DNA from: Spirochaetae bacterium HGW-Spirochaetae-1
GTDB lineage: Bacteria; Spirochaetota; UBA4802; UBA5550
Length of the DNA stretch: 64,000 bases
NCBI GenBank assembly: GCA_002839375.1
Contig: PGXY01000007.1
Coordinates: 1 to 64,000, forward strand
Reading direction: 5' to 3'
The notes beneath the pieces were generated by a model. The model worked only from the letters and a program-made list of their open reading frames with translations, searched no databases and had not been told where the DNA came from. A program made the position numbers and the translations under genes. Of this stretch, positions 1-63,002 are shown piece by piece (position 1 is the stretch's first letter; each line of letters starts with the position of its first letter).

Positions 1-57
1 TCGTTTATTAATAAAACGAAGGAGCAGTGTGGGGATTGAATATAATTTGTTTAAAAG

Positions 58-104
58 AAAGGGGTCAGAGCATTTTTTTTAAAGAAATAGGCTCTGACCC
101 CTTT
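58..104. repeat. Inverted pair of GGGGTCAGAGC repeats
   Basis: A 14-bp perfect inverted repeat (arms 58-71 and 91-104, core GGGGTCAGAGC) encloses a 19-nt A/T-rich loop. The core is the same 11-12 bp word found singly at 126-136, 6245, 6271, 6967 and 9055. No transposase is next to it inside the window. It reads as a REP-like or transposase-linked palindrome; that function is inferred. Confidence 0.7.
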
Positions 105-125
105 GTGGTTGTTCCTTTTCACTGA

Positions 126-136
126 GGGGTCAGAGC
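126..136 (+). repeat. Dispersed GGGGTCAGAGC repeat copy
   Basis: Single copy of the dispersed word, 22 bp to the right of the inverted pair at 58-104 and in the same orientation as its left arm. Confidence 0.6.
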
Positions 137-214
137 TACTGTTCTTATTTTAAAAACTATCCTGTCGTGCTACTGAGACACTTCCTACACCTAAATCGTG
201 TAACTAAGAAGTAC

Positions 215-240
215 AAAAAAAGCTGCCCTGATGGGCAGCC
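215..240 (-). terminator. Intrinsic terminator of the envelope operon
   Basis: A 7-bp stem (222-228 with 233-239, GCTGCCC/GGGCAGC) with a 4-nt loop. On the minus strand it is followed by a run of seven U (A-run at 215-221). It lies 30 nt past the stop of the FN3 lipoprotein gene. A T-rich stretch on the other side may make it work in both directions. Confidence 0.85.
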
Positions 241-269
241 TTTTCTTTATGCAATTTTTGAATATGCTA

Positions 270-53847: not shown

Positions 53848-56391
53848 TTATTCCAGTATTTCTTTCATTTTTACCGACAGTTCATACTTTGAATAAGGTT
53901 TTGCGATGAATCCACGCGCTCCATTTTTCAATGCCTTTTCTATGCGTTCATCATTGGAGAGTCCCGAAGCAAGAAGCACTCGTACTGCAGGATCAATCTT
54001 TTGCAGTTCTCTGATCATCTCAACTCCCGACTTCACCGGCATAGACAGATCCAGGAGTACGGCATCGATATTCCTGTGATTTTTTTTGAAAGTATCAATG
54101 CCTGCCAGGGCGCCCTCAGCGCCAACCACATAATAACCGCACTGTCGCAAAAACTCCTCGGCAATAAGGATCATATCTTTTTCATCGTCAACCACAAGAA
54201 TCGTTCCGGTTCCCTGAACCGCCTGCAGCTGATGCTCTCTCCTGATACGCCGTACATCATCGACGGTATATTCCGGAATATATACACGCATCACGGTACC
54301 CACTCCCGGTTCCGAATACACATCAATAAATCCCTTATGCATTTTGATTATGCTGTAGACCATGGAAAGACCCAGTCCCGTTCCCAGATCGGTTTTTGTA
54401 CTGAAAAAGGGCTCGAATATCCTCAGCCTCACATCTTCATCCATACCGACACCGGTATCGGTAAAGGAAATGAGAACATATGCCTTCCCTTTATCCGCTT
54501 CGGGATGAAGACTACAGAAATCAACATCGAATTCACGCCTTTCAATAGTAACAGTCATACGCCCTCCTTCACCTTCACCCTCACCACGCATAATAGTCAT
54601 GGCGTGGGAGGCATTGACAGCGATATTCAGGAATGCCTGTTCAATCTGTGTCTCGTCAGCATGTATATACGCGGGTAAATCGAGTAAATGAAAATCAAGC
54701 TGCACGCTCTTGGGAAAACTATTCATGGCTATATTCAGTATATGTTCCAGGGAAAGATTGATATCTACAGGAGAAAGTTTCTGCTCCTGCTTCTTTGAAA
54801 TCATCAATAGTTGGGAAATGATATCACGGGCCCTCTGGAAGGATGTCCTGGCCATATCTATATATCTTTCAATCTTTTCTCCCTTGGAAAGAACCTCCTT
54901 CTCAAGCAGTGTTTGAATAATCTCAAGACTACCGCTGATGGCGTTGAGGACATTGTTGAAATCATGAACCAATCCCCCGGCCAGGTTACCCACGGCCTCC
55001 ATCTTCTGGGCCTGCATAAGCTGAAGCCTCACCGATTCCTTTTCATCTTCGGTTCTCTTACGCTGCACCACATTCCACAGGGAGTCAGAAAGAAGTGAGA
55101 GGATATCTACTTCATTATCTGTATAATCCTCCTCCTTATTGCCGACACCCATAATGGCCACGGTATCCCCCCTGTCCATAACCGGCAGGGACAGGAAACG
55201 CCTGAGTGGCACATGGCCATCGGGTAGTCCCTTTCGCCCCTTCGACAGGACGTAATTATTATTGATCACCGGCTTTCCCGTATGTATGCAGTCGGCCCAT
55301 ATTCCGGCACTGTCCAGCGGGTACTGCATGCCCTCACCTTGGGCCGAACAGCTCTTCCTTGTTTTTGCCGACCACGTCTGCAGCTGTATGATTTTTTTCT
55401 CGGAATTGTAAAGATGAAAAAACCCGATCTCACTGCCGGTGAGCCTGACTCCCTCTTCAAGCCCGAAATCAAGAAGTTCTCTCACGCTTGCCCTGTCCAT
55501 AAGCCGGTTTAGTTCAAGAGCACAGCGCAGAGCCTCTTCGGCTTTTTTCTGTTTTGTTATATTCCAGGCGAAGGCCATTACACGGTCAATGGAACCTTCG
55601 TCGCTAAACAGAGGAACCGCATTAAACATCTGATGCTGGTTTTTTATGGTGATTTCAAAAGTTTGCTCTTCTCCCTGAAAGGCTTTACTACAATATTCCT
55701 TCACGAGAGCAGTCTGTTCGCCAAAGATTTCATCCAGCGTCTTTCCGGCATACGCCTCGGGATTCAGATTCCATCGCCTGAGCTCACCCCCCGTCATATA
55801 TCCCACGGTAAGGTCCTTTTCAATTACCGAGATATAGGCGTGGGGAATATTTTCGGTTACCGCTTTCAGCAACTGCATCGTTCCGGCATTATGGTCCCTT
55901 ATCATGATAGCCAGATGCGCCGCCAGGAGGTCTCTTGCCTGCGATACGCTCTGTTCAAATTCTTCACTGAATCTGTTGACTTTAGAGTCGAAAACACAGA
56001 GAGCCCCGAAGGGACTGCCGTCGGGATAGGAAAGGGGTAATCCCAGGTAGGCGATCATCCCCTGCTCCACTGCCGGGTTCCCGCGCCATCGGTCGTCATG
56101 AAGTGCGTCAGATACGAGGAGACTCTCGCCCGTACTGATGACCTCCTCGCAGAAAAGACCACAGTGATGGAAAAAGGACATACGTGCACCTTCATGAAAA
56201 ATGTTTTCCGGAGTTCTGCTCGCCTTGAAGACCTCGACATATCCCTCATCTTCATGAAGTCTTATTATCAGAACTGCCGGAACATTTCCTACTCGTGCCA
56301 GGTGGTCGATGATCTTCTGCCATTGTGCAACGGTTTCATCGGGAAAGGGAATATTCCATCCCATCAAGCTGTCGGATTCAAATGCCTGCAT
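53848..56391 (-). CDS. GAF-PAS-GAF-kinase-receiver hybrid
   Basis: Cytoplasmic hybrid kinase of 847 residues: GAF-like domain (about 25-170), PAS (185-295), second GAF (300-455), HisKA with GGLVHDFNNVL, HATPase with DTGVGM and GTGLGL, and receiver (725-847, VLLDLSMPVKSG). No N-terminal receiver, unlike its tandem paralog at 51467. I chose the ATG at 56391, with GGGAG 6 nt upstream; the frame is open to 56454. GAF domains may bind a small molecule, haem or a chromophore; none can be assigned. Confidence 0.92.
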   Translation of the reverse strand: MQAFESDSLMGWNIPFPDETVAQWQKIIDHLARVGNVPAVLIIRLHEDEGYVEVFKASRTPENIFHEGARMSFFHHCGLFCEEVISTGESLLVSDALHDDRWRGNPAVEQGMIAYLGLPLSYPDGSPFGALCVFDSKVNRFSEEFEQSVSQARDLLAAHLAIMIRDHNAGTMQLLKAVTENIPHAYISVIEKDLTVGYMTGGELRRWNLNPEAYAGKTLDEIFGEQTALVKEYCSKAFQGEEQTFEITIKNQHQMFNAVPLFSDEGSIDRVMAFAWNITKQKKAEEALRCALELNRLMDRASVRELLDFGLEEGVRLTGSEIGFFHLYNSEKKIIQLQTWSAKTRKSCSAQGEGMQYPLDSAGIWADCIHTGKPVINNNYVLSKGRKGLPDGHVPLRRFLSLPVMDRGDTVAIMGVGNKEEDYTDNEVDILSLLSDSLWNVVQRKRTEDEKESVRLQLMQAQKMEAVGNLAGGLVHDFNNVLNAISGSLEIIQTLLEKEVLSKGEKIERYIDMARTSFQRARDIISQLLMISKKQEQKLSPVDINLSLEHILNIAMNSFPKSVQLDFHLLDLPAYIHADETQIEQAFLNIAVNASHAMTIMRGEGEGEGGRMTVTIERREFDVDFCSLHPEADKGKAYVLISFTDTGVGMDEDVRLRIFEPFFSTKTDLGTGLGLSMVYSIIKMHKGFIDVYSEPGVGTVMRVYIPEYTVDDVRRIRREHQLQAVQGTGTILVVDDEKDMILIAEEFLRQCGYYVVGAEGALAGIDTFKKNHRNIDAVLLDLSMPVKSGVEMIRELQKIDPAVRVLLASGLSNDERIEKALKNGARGFIAKPYSKYELSVKMKEILE

Positions 56392-56510
56392 TACTCTCTC
56401 CCTGAGTGGTTTGACAGCATTTCTGCTCCATTCATTAAAACAGTATACCAACAATAGAGTATATTCAATTTTTTTATTTGAGTATCCGGCATTCTCCCTC
56501 TAATTTTAAT

Positions 56511-56542
56511 AAAAAAAGGGCTGCCCCTTTCGGTAGCAGCCC
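56511..56542 (-). terminator. Intrinsic terminator of the FecR lipoprotein gene
   Basis: GGGCTGC (56518-56524) pairs with GCAGCCC (56536-56542). On the minus strand it is followed by seven U (56511-56517). It starts 28 bp after the stop at 56570. Confidence 0.85.
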
Positions 56543-56569
56543 CGTGATTTTAAATATATTGGTCGGAAT

Positions 56570-57562
56570 TTACAGTTTCGGCGCGGCCGGTTTTTCCACC
56601 GCGGGCTTATCAATAGACTGCTTTTCAATTGTAGGCTTTTTAACATCGACGGAAAATTTCTTCACCTCGGGTTTGACGCCTTCGAGGCTCTTTGCCGTAT
56701 CACCTTTCAGCGCATCCACGGCTTCCTTTGCTTCCTCTTTGCCTTTATCCGCCGTTCCCTTGATGGCATCTATGTTGGCCTTGTCCAGGGCCTTCTGGTC
56801 CTCAACGCGCTGCAGGTCCTCGGCACGCTGTTTTTCCACGGCTTCTTTGGTCTGCTGCTTCATATCCTTGACCTGTTCCCGGATTTTCTCCCTTTCCTCT
56901 TCAAAGCGCTTGCGGATATCCTGCTGCATCTCTTTAATATCTTTCAGGATATTCTGGATTCTCTCCTTGTTGGCCGCGTCAAGTTCTTTGACATTGAGGG
57001 GTTTCCCGGGATCAACTTCCACTTCCTCTCCGGCATTGACTTCCACATATTCCGACTGTTCCACCGTTGCATCCTTGACTGCCACCTTTCCGTCGAGACA
57101 CGAGACCTTCGCCTTGTTTCCCAGCTCTGATACCATGAAATCGGTTCCCCTGATAGCTGCGATCGTGGTGGGAGTTTGAATGACATATTCATCGGACTTG
57201 CTGAGTTTCTTGGTGATTTTCGACAAGGTTTCCCCTTTTTCTATAAAGAGTTTCGTCTGCTCCGAATTACTTTCCAGGTTAGTTACGAGCTGACGGACTT
57301 CCACAACGGTGTTCTCCAGAACCTTCACGGCGTTCTCACCAAAGTAGATATCCACAACGGACTTGCTGCCGGTGATGATTTTCATACCCTGGGTCACCAC
57401 GTCGCCCACCTTCGCTTCATTCTTTTTTTCAACGGACATGAGATAAACCTCACCGCTGACAAAGTTAACCAGCCCCTCGCGGACTATTTCTTTCTGTTTT
57501 TTACAACTTATTCCGGATATGACAAATACGGACATAAGTACCAATACGACTAGACGTTTCAT
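56570..57562 (-). CDS. FecR-domain lipoprotein with coiled coil
   Basis: Lipoprotein of 330 residues. The leader ends SGISC, a relaxed lipobox typical of spirochetes. A FecR-like beta domain (about 35-165) contains VGDVVTQGMKIITGSKSVVDIYF and TTIAAIRGTDFMV. A charged coiled coil (190-290) and a Pro/Lys-rich tail with repeated KPxxEK units follow. It is not next to a sigma factor or TonB receptor, so it is unlikely to be an iron-signalling FecR; the domain here may be structural. GGAGG precedes the ATG and a terminator follows. Single-gene unit. Confidence 0.86.
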   Translation of the reverse strand: MKRLVVLVLMSVFVISGISCKKQKEIVREGLVNFVSGEVYLMSVEKKNEAKVGDVVTQGMKIITGSKSVVDIYFGENAVKVLENTVVEVRQLVTNLESNSEQTKLFIEKGETLSKITKKLSKSDEYVIQTPTTIAAIRGTDFMVSELGNKAKVSCLDGKVAVKDATVEQSEYVEVNAGEEVEVDPGKPLNVKELDAANKERIQNILKDIKEMQQDIRKRFEEEREKIREQVKDMKQQTKEAVEKQRAEDLQRVEDQKALDKANIDAIKGTADKGKEEAKEAVDALKGDTAKSLEGVKPEVKKFSVDVKKPTIEKQSIDKPAVEKPAAPKL

Positions 57563-57766: not shown

Positions 57767-58366
57767 CTAAAACTTGAGCACCTCGGACATGAAACTTTCC
57801 AGGTCATCGAAATACTTGTCATCATTGGTGAGCCGCCACATGATCATAGCCCCTTCATGGAGATGCAGAACACGCTGGGCAAGAATGCCGCAATCCATGG
57901 TCTGTCCGATCTCCCCTTTCTTCTTCATGCGCTCGAAAAAATCCCTGAGAATATTGTACCAGTTTTCAATAATGGTTCTGATGAGCTCATGCATTTCACC
58001 GTTGGTTGCATCGAGCTGAAATGCCGCTTCCGCAATAGGGCAGCCCCGGTATTTCATCTTCGTATCGTTTTTCAGCTGATTTACCCATTTCTTCATGAAT
58101 TCCGAATAGGATTGACTTGAGGTGATATGACTGGCCAAAACCCCCGTGAGATACCGGTCATAGCGCAGGATACATTCTTTGACGAGATCATTCTTTGACG
58201 GAAAGTGTTGGTAGAAGCTTGCCTTTGCCACATTCGATTCGCTGATTATCTGGTTTACGCCGGTATTGAGCACGCCCTGTTCATAAAAAAGCCTGGTGGC
58301 GGTTTTAACGATTCTTTCATGCACGCTCTTTTTTTTATCTTCACCCTCTTTATTTGTATTCGTCAT
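57767..58366 (-). CDS. TetR/AcrR-family regulator
   Basis: Transcription factor of 199 residues. The N-terminal helix-turn-helix (about 15-60) reads IVKTATRLFYEQGV, then VAKASFYQHFPSKNDLV. The C-terminal ligand domain includes RGCPIAEAAFQLD, common in one TetR branch. I chose the ATG at 58366; a TTG directly before it is also open. Two 14-bp palindromes 43-77 bp upstream are probable binding sites, so it should repress itself and whatever is transcribed on the other strand. Ligand unknown. Confidence 0.9.
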   Translation of the reverse strand: MTNTNKEGEDKKKSVHERIVKTATRLFYEQGVLNTGVNQIISESNVAKASFYQHFPSKNDLVKECILRYDRYLTGVLASHITSSQSYSEFMKKWVNQLKNDTKMKYRGCPIAEAAFQLDATNGEMHELIRTIIENWYNILRDFFERMKKKGEIGQTMDCGILAQRVLHLHEGAMIMWRLTNDDKYFDDLESFMSEVLKF

Positions 58367-58399
58367 CAATATCCTGCTTATTTTTTTTAATTATTTTTA

Positions 58400-58443
58400 T
58401 TGACACAGACAGACTTGTCTGTTTATTAGACAGACAAGTCTGT
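58400..58443 (+). promoter_or_regulatory. Promoter overlaid by twin palindromic operators
   Basis: Two 14-bp palindromes, ACAGACttGTCTGT (58409-58422) and ACAGACaaGTCTGT (58430-58443), are centred 21 bp apart, two helical turns. TTGACA at 58400-58405 and TATTAG at 58424-58429 (18-bp spacer) form a plus-strand promoter. The first palindrome fills the spacer, the second covers the start region. TetR regulators often bind such paired sites next to their own gene. Confidence 0.75.
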
Positions 58444-58718
58444 ATATATCTAGAATGTCAGGTCTTTTAGCGCAAGCATTTTTATTCTGTCATCACGGGA
58501 TATGTGCGGAATTAATTCACGTGAGTTGGTTCATGGTATAGAGATAATACCTCTTCCATAAACTTCTTCTGAAAACCGACGGCTTCATTTTTTTGAGGCG
58601 GGGAAAAGCCTTCCCGGCCGCCGTTACAGGTTATTTTTAACAATGTTGATCCTCAGGGTATATGAAAGTATACCCTGATCACTCCTCACACAAGCGCGGG
58701 AAACCGCGCTTTTTTTTT
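58436..58718 (+). ncRNA. Candidate small RNA under TetR control
   Basis: Predicted transcript of about 280 nt from the promoter at 58400-58429 to the terminator at 58693-58718. It contains hairpins at 58597-58622 and 58653-58678 (10-bp perfect stem TCAGGGTATA, loop TGAAAG) before the terminator hairpin. No reading frame with a ribosome binding site was found. Both flanking genes are on the other strand, so this terminator has no other use. Known sRNA families were not recognised. Confidence 0.5.
58693..58718 (+). terminator. Plus-strand intrinsic terminator without a plus gene
   Basis: AGCGCGG (58693-58699) pairs with CCGCGCT (58704-58710) around GAAA, a stable tetraloop, followed by eight or more T. 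Orientation is clearly plus. No plus-strand gene lies upstream for several kilobases. Confidence 0.85.
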
Positions 58719-58739
58719 CGTGTTTCCACAGCAAGACAG

Positions 58740-61700
58740 TTATTTCTCAGCACTGACTGCAGTATGAATTTTCCCCGGTGATGCATTTTTGGCAGCGTCA
58801 ATATTCCCTTCCCTGCCGATGGCCGGCATGGCAATCTTCATTGATTCGCTTTTATCCACATGCATATCGGGCCCTGTTCCATCTTCTTTCTCCCGGGGTA
58901 CCAACTGAGGGTCGGCTTTCCTGTCATCACGGGATTCATCGTTCCCTGTCTTCTTCCCCTCTCCTTCATATTCATCGAAAAGACGGAGCTCATCGGTGGT
59001 CCGCCTGTCAAGGAACTGTTTCGCTGTCATGGCATGGCCCATAAATTTCTTGAATTGCTCCGTCAGTTTTTTGTCGAGATTGATCTCAATCCCGTAGAGG
59101 CGCTCATAGATATCGGCGATAAGCCGCATCTTCGCCGGCGGCGTGAAGTGCATGATGAGCCGGCTTACTCTTTCGATATTATTGAGCCTGATATAGCAGA
59201 CAATCATGTTGCGGAATACAGGGTTATCGGAATCAAAGTGTGACGTGAGCATGAGATAATTCTCATAGAGACGCGCTGCAGCTGCATATTCCTGCCTCGC
59301 AAAATAATCGTTGGCTGCCACGAGAAACGATTCCCGTTTATCCGCTACGATGCGGTCAACATCAAGTTTCCTGGGGCGGTACTCGGCGCTTTTCATGTAA
59401 TAATTGCCGTCAGCTTCAACAATGAAAGGATGTGAGTCCAGCGCCGCCTTCAGGACGGCGTCATAATCGTCTCCCCTGAGAATGCTCCCTTCGCCAAAGA
59501 GCGACCTCACTATCCGGGACAGCGCCGGCGTTGCGATTTCATGGGCCGCCCTCCCGATGGAATAATTTTTTTCATTGCCGAGGCGGATACCTGCGATATA
59601 GGTGTCACTACCCGAGACGAAATGAACCGTTGCCAGGGCATCCCTGAGATCATTAGAGCTCCCGGTCTTTCCGGCGCCGATGCCCCTCATGGCCGACATG
59701 GACCCTCTCCGCACCGTCTCGCGAAGCGCCGTATTGATGAGCAGCACGGCCGCTTCAATTTCACGACGGTCAAACCTGCTCAGAACCGGTATGGAAACGG
59801 GTTTATATTCAGGAACAGCCTCTGTCCCCCGCGGCATGAGAAGTGAATCGATATAGGTATGTTTTGTTATGATGCCCTCATTGGCGAAAAGTGAGAAAGC
59901 CAGGAGAAACTTATCGTAGCGCTGATCACCGTTGGACCCGCCCAGTATCAGTGAGCGATACGTGGTATGCTTCATGGAGGAATCCTGGATATTCATTGTC
60001 TCGTTCAGAAGCTCGGCGAAGGTCTCGGGCGTGACTATTTCCTGGATCTGGGCATGTACGCTGTTTACGGAATAGACCAGGGCTTCCTTTACAGTTATCC
60101 ACTCACCGGTAAAACCACGGTAATTATCGGGTGTCCAGGACCAGCTTTCCCTGATCTGGTTTATTTCATCCTTTCGCTGGGGATATTTCAGGATATAATT
60201 CCGGTACGACATCTGCTGTTCCAGTGTATAATTGGCATAAGTAAGTTTTTTGTTGCGGACCCGGTCAGTGAGATTATATCCTTCGAGAAGAAAATAAAGG
60301 TCCAGTATGGGTTTCAGGCTGGAGCCCAGAGAGCGGTTGGCCATGGTCACCCAGTCCCAGTCATTTTTCCGCTTCGAATTGCCTCCCACATCGGCAACGA
60401 TACGATTCACGACATAAATACTCCCATCGGCACTCCTGCGGTTCGCCCAGATTATCCTGCTTCCCCCGTCAAGCTGCACGGACGAGGGCTGCCCGTTCAT
60501 CCTGAATTCCCCGTCGACATAAATAGTCCTGGCCTCGCTGTCGATTGCCCGTTGCAGAGACCGCTGCATGGATATGTTAACAGTAGTATTCATCACCAGC
60601 CCAGAATCGGAGCGTTCCTCCCCCAGCTCCTGATCAATCTCGCGCTTGATATTATTGACAAGCCGGTCATCCAGGGAATATACCGGCGGATGAAAATCAA
60701 AGCGTATCTTTTCGTTATGCAGTGCATTATAGTAATCGCTTTCGTCGATTTCCCCATGCCGAAACAGGAGACCCAGCAGATGATCGGTCCTGTTTTTCAG
60801 CCATCGGGCGACCGTATCATCTTTCAGAATCCCCTTATAGTTGTGCCTGCCCACACCGTATATGGCATTCTCCTCTTCCCAGGTCCCTATACGGGACGTA
60901 TCGCCCGAAATTAATTTTTCAAGTTCCCGGGCTTTCAGGTAGCGCGCGTACTCTTTTATATATGAAGGCTTTTTAACCGCGCCGGCCAGAAACATCTGTT
61001 CCCGCAGGTTGAGTTCATCGAGGCTCCGGGAAAAATAGATTTCCGCCTGGGACCGGAATCCGATTATCTGTCCATGAAGATATCCGCCGAAGACATCGTT
61101 GACATAGGCTTCAAGTATATCATCCTTGTCCCAGAACCAGTACAGCAGCGCCGATGCCGGGAGCTCATGTTTTTTCTGTTCTATTTTCCGCTCATATCCC
61201 GATCCATTTCCGTTTATATCGGGAATGTACCGTGTGTACAACAGCTCCATAAGCTGGTTGGAAATGGAACTGCCGCCTCTCATATCGCTTTTAAAACCGC
61301 GTCTGAAATGATCGATCAGGGGTGGGAAATTATGACGTATCCATGAGATATCGTAAGAATTACCGAAGAGAAGCACCAGTTCCAGTACATCATGAGCGAT
61401 CTTCTTTGCCGCCTGGGGAACGATGACAGGCAGGTCATTCCCCCTGTGCGGCAGCGGCAGCAGGTCGTTGTAAAAACGCCGGTCCTCCCTGAGTATGAGT
61501 CCTTTTTTCATCAAAGGGGGTATGTCGGACAGGTCCGCCCATTTTCTCGTATCGGCCTTGTGGTAAAGGACAGTGACGAAGGGGCGGTCGCCGTTTATTT
61601 CCCTGATCCAGCGCAGGGGACGCGGTGAATTCATAATTTTTTTCAGGACATCGCTGCTGACCCTTTCATAACCGATATCCGTTAACCGAAACAGGTAATA

Positions 61701-63002
61701 CTTTCCGCCCGTAAAATCGTCGAGGAAACAATACAGTTTTTCCATCGCGGACTTGTCCAGTACCCGGTCCAGGAAACGGCGGTATGAGCGGTACCCATCG
61801 GAAGCCCGTTTTCCCAGGGCCTCACGGTCTACGGCAATTACGGTCAGGCCGTTCTGGTCGCTGATACGCATGTCTTTATAGGAATTGTAGCTGAGATCAA
61901 CGGCAATATCGCCGTGATTTACGAAGCGGAAGAGCATCCCTTTCCCGGACCTGGCGCCTTTCAGTCTGAAATTTGAAAAATCGGTATTTCGGTTCATGCG
62001 GTAAATCCGGTTGGCCCTTTCGGCATAGGGAGACCTTACCGTCATTATTTCCCCGGGACGGTATATGCCGCTATGGAAATAATCATTCCGGAAAAGCCCG
62101 TAGAGTCCCAGGGTCACATCGGCAAGGAGGGGTATCGCCAGGAATGCCACTATGGCAGCAAGGGATATTTTTTTCATACCCAGGACGGTCTTCTGTATTC
62201 TGCTTCCCGGGTCCCTGGCGCGGATTTTTCCCGTCAGAAATAAGGCCGTCCCCTGGATCTCATCGACGGAAAAAAGCCGTTTCATTCTGATTTTGAACCG
62301 GGCCTTGTGACGGATGAATTCATCGGGAGCGAAATCGGGAAAATAATGCAGGATATAACTTTCCGGGAAGGGTCTCGCAAGCATTTTCCCGGAATATATC
62401 TTCCCCAGCCTGACAATGCCGCTCTGCGTGAATACTTTTTTCCGCTCCCTGTTTCCTGCCGTCTTCCCGTTGTGGTCAAGCCTGTCATCGATATGCAACA
62501 GATTCTCGATATAGAAACATCTTTCCCTTTCGTCATCGGCATAGATATTGGCAAGGCCTGTTTTTATCATTTTCGACAGCGGAGAACCGGGAATGAGGAA
62601 AGAGGGGGATTCTTTCTTTAAATACGCAAGGCCCCGCCGGCACTGGCGGTTGAGAGCATTTTTCATGGCTATGAAAATATTTCTTTTTCTTCCCAGCGCG
62701 GACCGCGTCCTGTTATACGTTCCCGATGAGTTGAGCGGCCTGTCCAGGATTTTAACGCCGCCCTTTCCGGTTTCCTTTTTAACGAAAAGCCGGTCTGCGC
62801 TATTTTTCACCGCCAGGGGATAAAACACACCATCGATTTCAATAATTTTTCTGAATATATTTTGCTTCCGGAGAATGCCTGCCGGGACGAGGGACAGAAA
62901 CAGCACCAATTTTCTCAGGAGCGGGACCCTAAACCAGTAATCGCCGCATATCCATTTCGACAGGGGCAGGCAGTGAAGGAAATTATCCCGTTTTAATTTC
63001 AT
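58740..63002 (-). CDS. Large bifunctional penicillin-binding protein (class A)
   Basis: Peptidoglycan synthase of 1420 residues; class A enzymes are usually 650-900. Residues 1-275 form a basic cytoplasmic region not recognised. A membrane helix is at 278-300. A GT51 transglycosylase region has EDRRFY (506-511) and GGSSISNQLMELLY (576-589); the usual His after ED-x-x-F is absent. The transpeptidase motifs are SSLK (894-897), SVN (978-980) and KTGSS (1112-1116). The C-terminus (about 1190-1420) has TPR-like helices and a charged tail. GGAG lies 9 nt before the ATG. It makes and cross-links glycan strands in the periplasm; the added parts may dock partners. Confidence 0.88.
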   Translation of the reverse strand: MKLKRDNFLHCLPLSKWICGDYWFRVPLLRKLVLFLSLVPAGILRKQNIFRKIIEIDGVFYPLAVKNSADRLFVKKETGKGGVKILDRPLNSSGTYNRTRSALGRKRNIFIAMKNALNRQCRRGLAYLKKESPSFLIPGSPLSKMIKTGLANIYADDERERCFYIENLLHIDDRLDHNGKTAGNRERKKVFTQSGIVRLGKIYSGKMLARPFPESYILHYFPDFAPDEFIRHKARFKIRMKRLFSVDEIQGTALFLTGKIRARDPGSRIQKTVLGMKKISLAAIVAFLAIPLLADVTLGLYGLFRNDYFHSGIYRPGEIMTVRSPYAERANRIYRMNRNTDFSNFRLKGARSGKGMLFRFVNHGDIAVDLSYNSYKDMRISDQNGLTVIAVDREALGKRASDGYRSYRRFLDRVLDKSAMEKLYCFLDDFTGGKYYLFRLTDIGYERVSSDVLKKIMNSPRPLRWIREINGDRPFVTVLYHKADTRKWADLSDIPPLMKKGLILREDRRFYNDLLPLPHRGNDLPVIVPQAAKKIAHDVLELVLLFGNSYDISWIRHNFPPLIDHFRRGFKSDMRGGSSISNQLMELLYTRYIPDINGNGSGYERKIEQKKHELPASALLYWFWDKDDILEAYVNDVFGGYLHGQIIGFRSQAEIYFSRSLDELNLREQMFLAGAVKKPSYIKEYARYLKARELEKLISGDTSRIGTWEEENAIYGVGRHNYKGILKDDTVARWLKNRTDHLLGLLFRHGEIDESDYYNALHNEKIRFDFHPPVYSLDDRLVNNIKREIDQELGEERSDSGLVMNTTVNISMQRSLQRAIDSEARTIYVDGEFRMNGQPSSVQLDGGSRIIWANRRSADGSIYVVNRIVADVGGNSKRKNDWDWVTMANRSLGSSLKPILDLYFLLEGYNLTDRVRNKKLTYANYTLEQQMSYRNYILKYPQRKDEINQIRESWSWTPDNYRGFTGEWITVKEALVYSVNSVHAQIQEIVTPETFAELLNETMNIQDSSMKHTTYRSLILGGSNGDQRYDKFLLAFSLFANEGIITKHTYIDSLLMPRGTEAVPEYKPVSIPVLSRFDRREIEAAVLLINTALRETVRRGSMSAMRGIGAGKTGSSNDLRDALATVHFVSGSDTYIAGIRLGNEKNYSIGRAAHEIATPALSRIVRSLFGEGSILRGDDYDAVLKAALDSHPFIVEADGNYYMKSAEYRPRKLDVDRIVADKRESFLVAANDYFARQEYAAAARLYENYLMLTSHFDSDNPVFRNMIVCYIRLNNIERVSRLIMHFTPPAKMRLIADIYERLYGIEINLDKKLTEQFKKFMGHAMTAKQFLDRRTTDELRLFDEYEGEGKKTGNDESRDDRKADPQLVPREKEDGTGPDMHVDKSESMKIAMPAIGREGNIDAAKNASPGKIHTAVSAEK

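Follow-up and report, generated by a model that had tools for sequence, protein, structure and literature searches.

A TetR-flanked promoter with twin operators in a spirochaete genome probably marks a deleted CoA-transferase operon

The DNA analysed here (the window) covers positions 1-64,000 of contig PGXY01000007.1 (GCA_002839375.1) of Spirochaetae bacterium HGW-Spirochaetae-1, the genome of which amounts to 5.2 Mb. Two genes frame the locus under study, one for a TetR-family regulator of 199 aa (57767-58366) and one for a PBP1-type protein of 1420 aa with a long N-terminal part ahead of its transglycosylase domain (58740-63002); both are encoded on the minus strand, in agreement with the first-pass annotation of this sequence. 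Homologues of the PBP at this level occur in three of 19 other family genomes, and in these relatives the PBP adjoins neither FecR nor TetR. Within the window a FecR-domain gene and a hybrid histidine kinase gene occupy positions 53848-57562, and genes of the same two types are also adjacent in G003 and G015.

Between TetR and the PBP, the plus strand harbors a promoter-like sequence consisting of a -35 box TTGACA (58400-58405), which is identical in all five aligned relatives, and a -10 box TATTAG (58424-58429) separated by an 18 bp spacer. Two perfect 14 bp palindromes, to which no strand is assigned, are superimposed on it. Operator 1 (ACAGACTTGTCTGT, 58409-58422) lies inside the promoter spacer, while operator 2 (ACAGACAAGTCTGT, 58430-58443) covers the expected start site and, in an alignment of six upstream regions, coincides with the conserved operator of the relatives; the spacing of the two is exactly 21 bp. 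Further downstream, an intrinsic terminator with an 8 bp stem (AAGCGCGG-GAAA-CCGCGCTT) and a T run was found on the plus strand only (58692-58719). Promoter, twin palindromes and terminator had all been described before and were recovered as such from the sequence. The TATTAG box matches TATAAT at four of six positions and lacks the final T, which is why a simple promoter scan did not list the plus-strand promoter. Throughout the 5.2 Mb genome the exact pattern ACAGAC-N2-GTCTGT is present in three copies, two of which are those at 58409-58443, whereas the reversed control pattern had no exact match.

The TetR protein is AcuR/LmrA-YxaF-like with a TetR_N and a TetR_C_13 domain, as judged from Pfam, NCBIfam and family homologues. 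TetR_N (PF00440) was detected with 52.1 bits (cut-off 24), and the LmrA/YxaF-like Pfam domain TetR_C_13_2 also scored above its cut-off. The best NCBIfam profile was AcuR (NF051457, E 1.8e-20), with a score of 73 bits that is far under the curated cut-off of 247. Its closest homologues in the same family are 46-51% identical (G005, G009, G010 and G014), and a fifth, in G016, is split into two fragments. These fragments (L019/L033, G016:C368:1611-2148) overlap, indicating a frameshift or an assembly error. The next-best TetR within the own genome is 28% identical, and a related-locus scan with the window TetR as query returned only distant homologues (identity of at most 40% across the greater part of their length).

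AcuR, the TetR-family repressor of the acuR-acuI-dddL operon of Rhodobacter sphaeroides, binds an operator with AGAC/GTCT half-sites over the promoter and has acrylate-related targets (PMC3017554). The likeness to the operators described here lies in these half-sites and in their position over the promoter; the AcuR half-sites are, however, separated by 6 bp instead of 2, the gene order is different and the AcuR operon is leaderless. With LmrA and YxaF (QdoR) of Bacillus subtilis, the window TetR shares TetR_C_13_2, a match at the domain level only. The LmrA/YxaF box also has the AGAC-N2-GTCT geometry, and these regulators control themselves as well as neighbouring operons, with an efflux pump and quercetin dioxygenase among the targets.

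The divergent side of the homologous TetR genes was then compared. In all five relatives (G005, G009, G010, G014, G016) it is occupied by a CoA-transferase subunit A gene, followed by a subunit B gene wherever the contig reaches that far, the pair belonging to PF01144; the B genes beside TetR show about 86-87% identity to the G005 gene. When the upstream regions were aligned with the present locus, ATTGACA was invariant and the operator ACAGACA-GT-TGT was conserved. The relatives' -10 boxes read TATTAG, TATTTG, TATCTG or TACGTG with a spacer of 17 bp, compared to 18 bp here, and the TATTAG of G005 is the same as in the window. Each of the five genomes contains a single exact operator, located at the TetR/CoA-transferase promoter. 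Since the same operator and -35 box stand between TetR and the operon in the relatives, the promoter and operators in the window most likely share their origin with the control region of a CoA-transferase operon. This recurrence in five genomes also lends support to the earlier proposal that TetR controls the divergent promoter through the palindromes, and the neighbouring TetR probably acts on the plus-strand promoter. Regulator, -35 box, operator sequence and divergent layout are thus shared with the TetR-CoA-transferase operon; the locus differs in that its operators are 21 bp apart rather than about 50 bp, and in that the structural genes A and B are missing.

No orthologue of either gene was found in the genome. 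The best A-type match is 32% identical and no A orthologue was detected, and the search for subunit B gave no match at E ≤ 1e-60, so by sequence comparison the orthologue of the CoA-transferase operon is absent. An assembly gap is unlikely to be the cause, because the assembly is 96% complete.

A possible trace of the operon was detected in front of the terminator. When the translated stretch between promoter and terminator (the stub) was compared with about 130 loci, the top three matches, from three operons, all coincided in one stretch of 20 residues close to the C-terminal end of subunit B (EKPSRPPLQVIFNNVDPQGI in the window, ETPSKEILQILRNEVDPSGL in subunit B; E 0.006-0.01). The corresponding 20 codons, followed by TGA, lie at 58603-58662 on the plus strand. 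With a subunit B profile built from 30 homologues, segment 58597-58662 ranked first among 2236 reading-frame segments of the window, at E 0.27 against 6.8 for the runner-up. Of 20,000 dinucleotide shuffles, five equalled its score anywhere in the protein, and none did so on the plus strand at the C-terminal end. A frameshift-aware alignment of the stub was matched by none of 300 shuffles for subunit B, compared to 11 of 300 for subunit A. At the DNA level, the 60-nt gene tails of three relatives were tried in about 128,000 placements, of which 58603 scored highest (52% versus 47% for the next), a test that used the segment picked by the protein comparison and is therefore not independent of it; plain local DNA alignment with +1/-1 scoring did not recover the match. 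The similarity extends over only 20 codons and stops six codons short of the usual gene end. The distance of about 30 nt from this segment to the terminator is roughly that between B gene and terminator in G005, and in the operons of G005, G014 and G009, too, the B gene is succeeded by a short hairpin or a terminator. We regard 58603-58662 as a putative 3' remnant of the subunit B gene, identified by protein profile, shuffles and DNA placement. A non-coding stretch of 159 nt (58444-58602, plus strand) separates operator 2 from this tail; no similarity to the relatives' operon, no remnant of the A gene and no match to anything else was found there.

Taken together, these results suggest, with a probability that we put at about 0.72, that a CoA-transferase operon repressed by TetR once stood here and that the locus retains its control region, the structural genes having been deleted. 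Near its own gene, the AcuR/LmrA-YxaF-like TetR would bind both palindromes, which overlie a divergent promoter of the sigma-70 type, and this promoter would originally have transcribed the A-B pair, as in the relatives. A deletion with the promoter on one side and the end of the B gene on the other would have spared promoter, operators, gene tail and terminator, and the B-gene 3' end and the terminator would have come to lie within about 160 nt of the promoter. The only product of de-repression would now be a terminated RNA of about 250-280 nt that codes for nothing and presumably has no dedicated function. Features of this kind, orphaned promoters and operon scars, are already known. Among the genomes compared there was no closer relative in which the operon at this site is still complete or only half deleted.

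The first-pass annotation had interpreted the divergent unit as a dedicated structured RNA, possibly acting on PBP or other envelope mRNAs. This is not borne out, as the relatives carry the CoA-transferase pair in this place and the B tail is recognisable in the window; further, nothing links the stub RNA to the PBP. There is a small chance that, once the operon had been lost, the stub RNA came to serve as a trans-acting sRNA under TetR control, for example on mRNAs of acyl-CoA metabolism. Such an RNA would have its own conserved and intact promoter, two perfect operators and a terminator, although these are sequence features only and the promoter is homologous to that of a protein-coding operon. 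The predicted fold is unusually stable (z -6.3, -5.7 and -5.2 with 30 shuffles), which makes the stub the second most structured of 134 window stretches (the third lowest z being -2.8), and the earlier description of three hairpins is a fair one. Perfect operators together with a fold of z -5 to -6 could mean that the transcript is under selection, and this has to be counted against a mere deletion scar. However, the fold score derives in part from the terminator and from one perfect hairpin with an 11 bp main stem (TCAGGGTATA/TATACCCTGA region, 58650-58685, plus strand), predicted by RNA folding and overlapping the end of the remnant; without these last two hairpins, 58463-58640 gave a z of only -2.7.

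Conservation likewise speaks against recruitment. No homologue of the stub RNA was found in the 392 other genomes of the phylum, and at the DNA level 59 close and 393 phylum genomes yielded merely fragments of about 24-45 bp. Rfam returned no family at gathering score, and only chance matches at permissive thresholds. Matches of 24-25 bp to the terminator in G044 and G023 (L004, L006) were rejected as homology, as they lie behind a DNA gyrase A-like gene and represent a generic terminator. Two findings that the first-pass annotation had named as arguments against its own proposal were thus obtained in part: the homologous regions of the relatives do encode proteins, namely the CoA-transferases, and the hairpins are kept in no genome searched. 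No evidence for a target was obtained, and the literature on sRNAs from deleted operons or under divergent TetR control held nothing bearing directly on the locus. We give slightly less credit still to the specific sequence of events in which deletion of a catabolic operon turned the stub into a structured sRNA, so that a metabolite-sensing TetR would now control an RNA derived from the tail end of the operon that it once regulated.

That the palindromes serve TetR autoregulation only, with an inactive plus-strand promoter and a terminator that blocks antisense reading from this intergenic DNA into the PBP gene, is improbable. The weak -10 box and the orientation of the terminator towards the convergent PBP gene would fit, but TTGACA and a TAT-type -10 box are kept at the same place in the relatives, ahead of the CoA-transferase operon. 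That the one short ATG frame behind the promoter (ATG near 58456) encodes a small protein, of about 28 aa and so far unrecognised, is very unlikely, as there is no ribosome-binding site and no homologue and stops occur in every frame. The earlier statement that no supported ORF lies between promoter and terminator was confirmed: no frame is open across the interval, and none of the plus-strand ORFs of ≥30 aa touching it has a visible ribosome-binding site.

On the favoured reading, a retained control region whose operon was deleted, TetR was probably kept for other targets. The third exact operator (G000:C7:182859-182872, L196 near 4860), here extended to a 16 bp palindrome (GACAGACCGGTCTGTC), is situated upstream of a tandem pair of acyl-CoA dehydrogenase-like genes, at a distance of about 110 bp, and TetR therefore probably still has work to do. 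This gene pair is a plausible remaining target, although a single site of this kind could also have arisen by chance. The locus serves mostly as a caution: the deletion of an operon can leave behind what looks like a textbook sRNA gene, with promoter, operators, hairpins and terminator but lacking an ORF, and sRNA predictions that use only the sequence can be misled by it. Should the RNA turn out to have a function, the locus would allow the origin of an sRNA from a lost operon to be traced.

A second structured region was noted at the start of the window (1-258, z -6.3). It contains nested palindromes built on GGGGTCAGAGC, with 23-nt arms at 58-104 and another copy at 125-136, which we take to resemble REP-type repeats, and also a hairpin followed by T residues.
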